Assembly: GCA_026414975.1 (NCBI GenBank) | Contig: JAOAHZ010000004.1 | Location: forward strand, 1-64,000 | Length of the DNA: 64,000 nucleotides | Reading direction: 5' to 3' | From: Bacteroidia bacterium | GTDB taxonomy: Bacteria > Bacteroidota > Bacteroidia > SpSt-205 | Shown: positions 58,513-59,870 of the stretch, in pieces | How positions within the stretch are numbered: position 1 is the first letter of the stretch | Layout of the letters: each line of letters opens with the position of its first letter | Made by a program: the position numbers and the translations under genes | Notes under the pieces: model-generated | What the model saw: the letters and a program-made list of their open reading frames with translations, nothing else | What the model was told of the DNA's origin: nothing | Database searches by the model: none

Positions 58513-59373
58513 GTGAGCCTAAGCTTTGAATCGCCGGCTTATCTGGGGCTCTTGCCTGTTTGGGTGGGGCTAGCTTGGATGGGGGGCCGAGTGCGGCTTT
58601 TCGTGGGGTATGGTCCTTCTCAGCGGCGTCTATCCTCATGGAGAGCCTTTTTTCCTTTATGGGGCGTTGCTATCTCGGCTGCGCTTGCAACAGTGGCCGT
58701 TAGCGCGCCTCACCTGCATCTTACGCGGGAAAGCCTGGTTCTTCCTGATACGTGGGTTTTGTGGGATATTTCTCAGAGCATGCGGGAACGGGACCTGTCC
58801 CCTGACCGACAGAGGTTTGCTTTAGATCAAGTGGTTTCGGCTCTGGAAGCGGCCCCGATCCAGCGAATTGGCCTGGTTGTTTTTTCAGCTGAGGCCTATG
58901 CGGTGCTTCCCCTGACGACTGACAAGGAGGCGTTCCTATTTAGTCTGCGCCAGTCGGTTCGGTTGGACATGGGGGAGGGCACGAATCTCGCTGCAGCCAT
59001 AGAAACAGCCTTAGCTTTAGCTGAGCCATCTCAGCAGTGTCTAATAGTGAGCGATGGCGCCCATAACATTCCTGAGACCCCTGCGCTTTCAGAGCTGGCG
59101 CAGGTAGCTCAGCAGCGAGGGATTCGCCTGCATACCTTTTTAGTCGGACGAGAGGGACCTCAGTTATTCCCCGCTGCTCTTCAGCTTCTGAGCCAGACCA
59201 CGGGAGGCAGCTACCAGGAAGGGGGCTTTCGCTTAGACCCGCTACTGATCGCCGCTGAGTATCCGCAGACCTATCCTCTGGCTCCCTATCTATGGATAGC
59301 GGCGATAGGCGTGGGTTTGGCTGTTTTAGGGGGTATGAGCTTAGGGGGATGGTTTAGTGTGCTCACGGCATAA
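58513..59373 (+). CDS. BatA-like membrane protein with vWA domain
   Basis: 286 residues from GTG 58513. Two N-terminal helices, a periplasm-facing or cytoplasmic von Willebrand factor A domain and a C-terminal helix pair, as in BatA/BatB. The metal-ion site is intact: WDISQSM (DxSxS), GTNLAAAIETAL (Thr) and IVSDGAHNIP (Asp). Family members in Bacteroidota sit in the moxR-bat operon linked to oxidative-stress tolerance; here moxR and other bat genes are absent. The end overlaps osmC, on the other strand, by 11 bases. Confidence 0.85.
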   Translation: MSLSFESPAYLGLLPVWVGLAWMGGRVRLFVGYGPSQRRLSSWRAFFPLWGVAISAALATVAVSAPHLHLTRESLVLPDTWVLWDISQSMRERDLSPDRQRFALDQVVSALEAAPIQRIGLVVFSAEAYAVLPLTTDKEAFLFSLRQSVRLDMGEGTNLAAAIETALALAEPSQQCLIVSDGAHNIPETPALSELAQVAQQRGIRLHTFLVGREGPQLFPAALQLLSQTTGGSYQEGGFRLDPLLIAAEYPQTYPLAPYLWIAAIGVGLAVLGGMSLGGWFSVLTA

Positions 59374-59782
59374 GCGTGTAAAAGATATCTATCGTGCACC
59401 CGGCCGCTTCGAACATAGCCATGGCGCTGCAGTATTTCGTACGTGAGAGATAAATGGAGCGTTCCACGTCTGCTGAGGTGGCGTCTGGGCTTTTCAAGTT
59501 CAGGGAGATTTTTACGGAGGTGAAGACTTGAGGGGGCTCCGGTCGGCGTTCTGCTTGGGCCTCTACAAAAAAAGTCTCTACGGTTTTGCGCTTTTTTCGA
59601 AGGATACTCAGTACATCAGCAGAGAAGCAAGCCAGCATAGCTGAGAGTAAGCCCTCCATAGGGCGAGCGGCTCTGTCAGTGCCCCCTACTTCTTGAGGTG
59701 AGTCGTAGCTAAGGGTATGGCCTTTATCAGATTGAGCTAAAAAGTGCAATCCCTCCCCCATCCAGTGGAGGTTTATGTGCAT
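59363..59782 (-). CDS. OsmC-family peroxiredoxin-like protein
   Basis: 139 residues. OsmC/Ohr-fold proteins reduce organic hydroperoxides with paired cysteines. MEGLLSAMLACFSADVLSIL holds the first Cys and LSRTKYCSAMAMFEAAGC the second, the usual arrangement of the YhfA-like branch. The ATG at 59782 begins one base after the discriminator of the upstream tRNA, so it has no room for its own promoter or ribosome-binding site and must be expressed through the tRNA transcript. Confidence 0.88.
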   Translation of the reverse strand: MHINLHWMGEGLHFLAQSDKGHTLSYDSPQEVGGTDRAARPMEGLLSAMLACFSADVLSILRKKRKTVETFFVEAQAERRPEPPQVFTSVKISLNLKSPDATSADVERSIYLSRTKYCSAMAMFEAAGCTIDIFYTLMP

Positions 59783-59783
59783 G

Positions 59784-59856
59784 TGGGCCCGGAGGGATTC
59801 GAACCCCCGACCAACGGATTATGAGTCCGCTGCTCTAACCGCTGAGCTACAGGCCC
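59784..59856 (-). tRNA. tRNA with CAT anticodon (Ile2 or elongator Met)
   Basis: 73 bases on the minus strand. The acceptor GGGCCTG pairs with CGGGCCC and the discriminator is A. Stem GCGGA/TCCGT encloses CTCATAA, giving CAT. The TTGGTCG after the anticodon stem resembles E. coli tRNA-Ile2, whose C34 is lysidinylated by TilS, but elongator Met cannot be excluded. CCA is not encoded. Confidence 0.9.
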
Positions 59857-59862
59857 GCCCTG

Positions 59863-59870
59863 CAAAGGTA
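59863..59870 (-). promoter_or_regulatory. tRNA(CAT)-osmC -7 box TACCTTTG
   Basis: Perfect TACCTTTG, six bases before the tRNA 5' end. It is the only promoter candidate for osmC as well. Confidence 0.75.

Follow-up and report, generated by a model that had tools for sequence, protein, structure and literature searches.

Start codons directly behind tRNA genes in a Bacteroidia genus point to tRNA 3' processing as a likely source of near-leaderless mRNAs

Introduction

How is an osmC-family gene expressed when its ATG stands a single nucleotide behind a tRNA gene? This question is raised by contig JAOAHZ010000004.1 of a Bacteroidia bacterium, of which we analyzed a stretch of 64,000 nucleotides (64 kb), referred to here as the window. 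According to the original prediction, a promoter box, a CAT-anticodon tRNA, one C and the osmC ATG follow one another on the minus strand, and cleavage at the tRNA 3' end might release a leaderless mRNA, thereby linking OsmC production to tRNA maturation.

Layout of the osmC locus

The predicted order is borne out to the base by coordinates, the Rfam match and the open reading frame:

59863..59870, minus strand: -7 promoter box TACCTTTG of the tRNA-osmC transcription unit, fitting the Bacteroidota sigma-A -7 consensus TAHHTTTG (PMC6847099)
59858, minus strand: predicted transcription start, 2 nt 5' of the tRNA, with the box placed at -12..-5 as in PMC6847099 and PMC9723704
59784..59856, minus strand: CAU-anticodon tRNA of 73 bases, single copy, best read as tRNA-Ile2 (AUA-decoding); Rfam 74.7 bits
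59783, minus strand: C, read as tRNA position 74, the sole base between discriminator and ATG
59363..59782, minus strand: osmC-family CDS of 139 aa, ATG at 59782-59780; Pfam OsmC

Six bases separate TACCTTTG from the tRNA, a distance that would place the transcription start about 2 nt ahead of tRNA-Ile2, and a TAnnTTTG-type box lies 6-10 nt 5' of tRNA-Ile2 in 9 of 11 genomes. When the osmC frame is read upstream of its ATG, no ATG, GTG or TTG is met before a TAA in the anticodon loop. Moreover, the osmC orthologues can be aligned from residue 1 and most of them have no alternative usable start codon over about 30 codons downstream, so that the position of the start is essentially forced. The claim that this arrangement leaves no room for a promoter or a ribosome site also stands; positions -12..-5 are occupied by the acceptor-arm sequence CTCCGGGC, which agrees with the box consensus at 0 of 6 positions.

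The encoded protein carries a Pfam OsmC domain (57.6 bits versus a cut-off of 27.5), and C52 and C118 are invariant among 11 sequences, as expected for the OsmC/Ohr superfamily. The closest NCBIfam model is PRK10738 (YhfA-like), for which the score of 74.6 bits falls below the equivalog cut-off of 138; identification as YhfA proper was rejected on this ground, and we use only the label OsmC family. At its 3' end (59363-59373) osmC overlaps a convergent gene for a VWA-domain protein (58513-59373, plus strand) by 11 nt. On the other side, a divergent M43-type peptidase gene (start region 59892-59904, plus strand) is called from an ATG at 59901; its TATTTTTG box, with a spacing of 4 nt, favors the GTG at 59904 as a leaderless start, and the divergent boxes of this gene and of the osmC unit are about 21 nt apart.

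The tRNA and its position 74

ARAGORN labels the CAU tRNA as tRNA-Met. We rejected this label because the best matches of the tRNA in E. coli are annotated as tRNA-Ile, because two further CAT tRNAs, one of them with the initiator mismatch C1-A72, are present among the sampled tRNAs of the source genome, and because this genome encodes TilS (133.1 bits versus a cut-off of 93.6). The tRNA beside osmC is thus probably a lysidine-type, AUA-decoding tRNA-Ile2, the modification itself being predicted. AUA accounts for 276 of 876 isoleucine codons in the long open reading frames of the 64-kb window. Since AUA is used freely and tRNA-Ile2 is present as one copy in each family genome, tRNA-Ile2 is very probably essential.

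None of 44 sampled tRNAs of the source genome encodes CCA, and 39 of the 44 encode C74. The same base is found in 42 of 43 tRNAs in genome G005, in 28 of 28 in G012 and in 32 of 33 in G031, and positions 75 and 76 vary in the tRNA genes, with CCA rarely encoded. Because C74 is nearly invariant while its two neighbors are not, it behaves as a part of the tRNA; judged from this pattern of variation, the single C at 59783 is part of the tRNA gene and not free spacer, and the start codon lies as near to the tRNA as it can. A lone C74 also divides two tRNAs elsewhere in the window:

32034..32191, plus strand: tRNA-Lys(TTT)-C-tRNA-Leu(GAG), with the lone C74 at 32107

That C74 is almost always encoded and C75-A76 rarely was seen in the source genome (G000), G005, G012, G031, G028 and G047, and comparison of these tRNA genes suggests that position 74 looks constrained across the class.

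Start sites behind promoter boxes

The original prediction had noted a leaderless pattern elsewhere in the window, and leaderless-type starts are common in the genome. In statistics that cover the 64-kb window and selected loci, 23 of 95 TAHHTTTG sites of the source genome precede the start of an open reading frame of at least 100 codons by 3-7 nt, compared with 4.3% for permuted motifs. The most frequent box-to-start spacing is 4 nt, which by published maps puts the ATG at +1 (PMC6847099, PMC9723704). One gene, named from the look of its translation, serves as an example:

61102..61116, plus strand: leaderless layout TATCTTTG-CTGC-ATG of an aconitase-type gene (start 61114)

On the basis of this spacing, genes close behind promoter boxes in the genus look leaderless, as a main mode. 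Genomes G031 and G047 have no excess of open reading frame starts 3-7 nt behind boxes. In G028, which belongs to another family, 8 of 29 boxes have leaderless-type spacing, and a partial sample of its tRNAs yielded no tight tRNA-CDS junction; given this spacing, leaderless use may have more than one origin within the class.

The junction in related genomes

The relatives used for comparison include metagenome-assembled records named 'Bacteroidia bacterium', for example SKYG57 and KatS3mg025/026. An osmC orthologue is present in 10 of 11 genus and family relatives, and in all ten it lies directly 3' of tRNA-Ile2. The exact arrangement tRNA-C-NTG is found in 8 of 11 genomes, the source included, as tRNA-C-ATG in four genomes (again counting the source), tRNA-C-TTG in two and tRNA-C-GTG in two; the three remaining gaps measure 3, 14 (locus L032) and 69 nt (genome G001, locus L040). 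Genome G008 (83% complete) retains tRNA-Ile2 and gives no osmC match, and its tRNA is followed by a hairpin and T-rich run that, by eye, look terminator-like (locus L076). Conservation of the junction among relatives, on which the original prediction depended, is therefore seen within the family, where no member that has the gene has it unlinked and one has in addition its own leaderless-type promoter. Outside the family the two are unlinked, with no tRNA near the osmC homologue at any of 19 class-level loci examined. Chance adjacency was rejected because tRNA-C-NTG recurs with three different start codons and because a second pair, tRNA-Val(CAC)-dxr, is also kept.

The 69-nt gap of G001 is informative because a perfect TACCTTTG occupies -12..-5 of the osmC ATG (TACCTTTG-CCTC-ATG). 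Published maps set the -7 box at just this position (PMC6847099, PMC9723704), and the ATG of the G001 gene would therefore be +1. In the other ten genomes, the segment at -12..-5 of the osmC start agrees with the box at 2 of 6 positions at most, which is no promoter match; in nine of them this segment lies within the tRNA. Judged from these layouts, osmC mRNA looks leaderless in either arrangement, whether behind its own promoter or adjoining the tRNA; the leaderless end would come from a promoter where the genes are apart and, we infer, from tRNA processing otherwise.

These comparisons also bear on the idea that a promoter inside the tRNA gives rise to a separate leaderless osmC transcript, with tRNA processing uninvolved. 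Many box-proximal genes of this genome do look leaderless from their own promoters, and G001 osmC behaves in exactly this way, albeit with a promoter outside the tRNA. Nevertheless, the segment at -12..-5 in the source genome is devoid of a box, the best box-like match within the tRNA reaches 4 of 6 positions, with its end about 28 nt ahead of the start, the C-TTG junctions would demand a pyrimidine at +1, and the same missing box would have to be excused at no fewer than ten loci. A separate promoter within the tRNA was rejected for want of a box match at -12..-5, and we regard it as highly improbable.

Other genes behind tRNAs

Twelve of the 44 sampled tRNAs of the source genome are followed by an open reading frame of at least 60 codons that begins 1-4 nt from the discriminator. 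These pairs, and one looser pair, are as follows:

Gap 1 nt: Ile2-osmC, Thr(CGT)-cytochrome, Val(CAC)-dxr, Leu(TAG)-trigger factor (tig), Ser(TGA)-fbp
Gap 2 nt: Trp-secE, His-DUF2480, Arg(TCG)-rplY
Gap 3 nt: Phe-PhoD
Gap 4 nt: Thr(GGT)-putative membrane protein, Gln-prs
Twelfth pair, less certain: a 69-codon open reading frame after Leu(TAA)
Looser pair, gap 8 nt: Asp-ligA

A looser version is also seen at tRNA-Lys(CTT) (36793-36864, minus strand), where a large same-strand open reading frame downstream has its ATG 19 nt from the discriminator. About a quarter of the tRNAs belong to such tRNA-CDS units, and every one of these has a tRNA promoter box, either its own or one that is shared. G005 has 12 starts within 4 nt behind tRNAs, over 43 tRNAs, and G012, from the same order, has an open reading frame within 4 nt at 4 of 28 tRNAs, including Trp-secE at 4 nt. 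In class-level controls, no open reading frame lies within 4 nt of a tRNA in G031 (0/33), G028 (0/18) or G047 (0/16), a total of 0/67 in which G028 and G047 are partial samples. Trp-secE is separated by 20 nt in G031, a genome of 2.2 Mb that has no tRNA-CDS gap below 16 nt and no CDS start within 10 nt. Because this control is as small as the source genome and yet lacks tight gaps, genome size was rejected as the sole cause of the layout.

A pattern scan over 119 class genomes gave 5-7 matches for each family genome, and mostly 0-1, with a maximum of 5, for the others. Raw counts of tRNA-C-DTG are misleading, as many genomes match the pattern; of the verified junctions, 10 of 12 within the family open a reading frame of at least 60 aa, but only 4 of 51 in the rest of the class do so (Fisher p 4e-7). 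In addition, tRNA-Val(CAC)-C-TTG-dxr is kept in 10 of 10 same-genus genomes in which dxr was found. In G012, dxr does not adjoin a tRNA and the context of its start is uninformative.

The proposed link between OsmC and tRNA maturation thus survives in part. The shared layout is real, but a special tie to OsmC is not supported, because at least ten unrelated genes are laid out alike; OsmC-specific coupling was rejected for this reason, and the tRNA-adjoining layout looks like a general architecture rather than regulation of osmC. How the linkage is to be read is a separate matter. It might reflect compaction and nothing else, in that leaderless initiation needs no leader and genes can be pushed against tRNAs, so that cleavage occurs and the linkage has no regulatory meaning. 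Such a reading is compatible with the processing mechanism, and we find it somewhat the more probable view of the linkage, considering that the layout is found with a dozen genes of unrelated function and that gaps range from 1 to 8 nt in genomes where leaderless initiation makes a spacer unnecessary. Yet the same pairs are kept across the genus together with a promoter box (10/10 for both dxr and osmC), which suggests a stable dependence, and the 2.2-Mb control indicates that size alone is insufficient.

The identity of these genes also bears on whether the RNA behind the tRNA is translated at all. Trailers of tRNAs are frequently degraded, and osmC RNA could be left as a mostly untranslated trailer if the tRNA were matured by another nuclease or by cleavage a few nucleotides further 3'. 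We consider this very unlikely. Divergence among osmC orthologues by codon position (0.29/0.22/0.63) indicates purifying selection on the CDS, and ligA, secE and dxr, which are essential in most bacteria, stand at such junctions, so that their products must be translated.

TTG start codons at the junctions

TTG opens dxr in 10 of 10 cases, tig in 4 of 4 checked and osmC in two, and is common right after tRNAs at the junctions of G005, G009, G010 and the source genome. In contrast, none of 48 box-proximal leaderless-type starts in the genus is TTG; only ATG or GTG is used there. This difference may be explained by a preference for a purine at +1 that applies to transcription but not to processing. 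In mycobacteria, a UUG at the mRNA 5' end does not function as a start (PMC4633059), unlike what its use at the present junctions would imply. Either the ribosomes of this genus accept a 5' UUG, perhaps so poorly that the output of a strong tRNA promoter is damped, or these starts are initiated in another way.

The use of a codon that performs poorly in known leaderless systems might also be taken to mean that the folded tRNA is still attached upstream of the start codon during translation. A folded tRNA would, however, occupy the place of upstream mRNA on the ribosome, a ribosome site within the tRNA is impossible, and osmC of G001, served by a promoter of its own, looks leaderless. We therefore judge continued attachment to be unlikely.

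A processing model for near-leaderless mRNAs

Taken together, the layouts make it likely, in our estimation, that a tRNA and the mRNA behind it are transcribed together from one promoter and then severed at the tRNA 3' end, yielding near-leaderless mRNAs. At the osmC locus, one promoter would produce a joint tRNA-Ile2/osmC transcript starting about 2 nt 5' of the tRNA, RNase P would trim the tRNA 5' end, and an endonuclease, most likely RNase Z, would cleave the 3' end of the tRNA, behind either the discriminator or C74. RNase Z is encoded in the source genome (278.6 bits versus a cut-off of 252), and endonucleolytic 3' maturation is expected because CCA is absent from the sampled tRNA genes. 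A cut after the discriminator would give pC-AUG and one after C74 pAUG; in both cases the osmC mRNA would carry a 5' monophosphate and a leader of 0-1 nt, to be read by the leaderless route on which this lineage seems to rely for many box-proximal genes. The same layout would serve about a dozen genes of the source genome. Strict leaderlessness is not required, since some loci have gaps of 3-8 nt and L032 has one of 14 nt.

CCA is an anti-determinant of RNase Z, and C74 may thus slow the enzyme. We put forward only tentatively, as somewhat doubtful, that the cut falls after C74, in which case every tRNA-C-NTG would free an mRNA that starts exactly at its start codon. If so, tRNA 3' maturation would serve the whole genome as a dedicated route to mRNAs with no leader at all, and these would be exempt from the purine +1 rule, making UUG usable and damping genes under strong tRNA promoters. 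If the broader processing model is true, the output of dxr, tig, secE, fbp and osmC would be coupled to transcription of the tRNAs and to the activity of RNase Z. Moreover, the genus would show leaderless translation freeing genome layout, and would lend itself to studying how a 5'-proximal UUG performs.

Comparison with known systems

Transcripts that contain both a tRNA and a protein gene, parted by RNases, are known from E. coli thrU-tufB and secG-leuU. To our knowledge, mRNAs of this type keep leaders with ribosome sites, unlike the present junctions, where the start codon is 1-4 nt from the tRNA.

The promoters resemble those mapped in F. johnsoniae (PMC6847099), B. thetaiotaomicron (PMC7366714) and F. 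psychrophilum (PMC9723704), which likewise have a TAnnTTTG -7 box and no Shine-Dalgarno sequence. Leaderless mRNAs or very short leaders (up to 10 nt) make up 3.7-13% in those three Bacteroidota, whereas the spacing observed here points to leaderless starts as a main mode. In a survey that would have missed non-Pribnow promoters, 1 of 37 Bacteroidetes/Chlorobi genomes had leaderless genes (PMC3160421); against this view of a phylum nearly without them, the present lineage is one in which leaderless mRNAs are seemingly common. In Actinobacteria and Deinococcus-Thermus, mRNAs with a 5' start codon and no Shine-Dalgarno leader represent a major mode of initiation (PMC4633059, PMC3160421, PMC3848588). 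Their 5' ends, however, arise from transcription initiation, and those at the tRNA junctions described here would necessarily arise from processing. That bacteria can cleave immediately behind C74 is known from P. acnes and S. coelicolor, in which cleavage occurs inside the tRNA CCA, between the Cs (PMC3848588, PMC4681348), although CCA is encoded there and only C74 here.

Our limited literature search found no report of tRNA processing creating leaderless bacterial mRNAs. Punctuation by tRNAs, leaderless mRNA and tRNA-mRNA co-transcripts are each known, and it is their genus-wide combination in a bacterium that we did not find in the literature searched. The closest parallel is the tRNA punctuation of animal mitochondria (Ojala et al. 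1981, cited in PMC5203842), where tRNAs abut coding sequences as they do here and are cut out by RNase P and tRNase Z, so that mRNAs start at their initiation codon or close to it; such cutting is predicted for the present genomes. The tRNA directly adjoins the start codon here too, lying 1 nt from it at 8 of 11 osmC loci. In mitochondria, on the other hand, most genes are involved and lie in long polycistrons, whereas here only about a quarter of the tRNAs are concerned, every unit comes with a bacterial promoter of its own and usually one tRNA per gene, the source organism has a complete bacterial chromosome of 2.2 Mb, and TTG and GTG starts are used. If the proposed mechanism is true, excision of tRNAs would be a routine maker of mRNA 5' ends in a group of Bacteroidia, much as in mitochondria, but in an organism with a full bacterial gene set.
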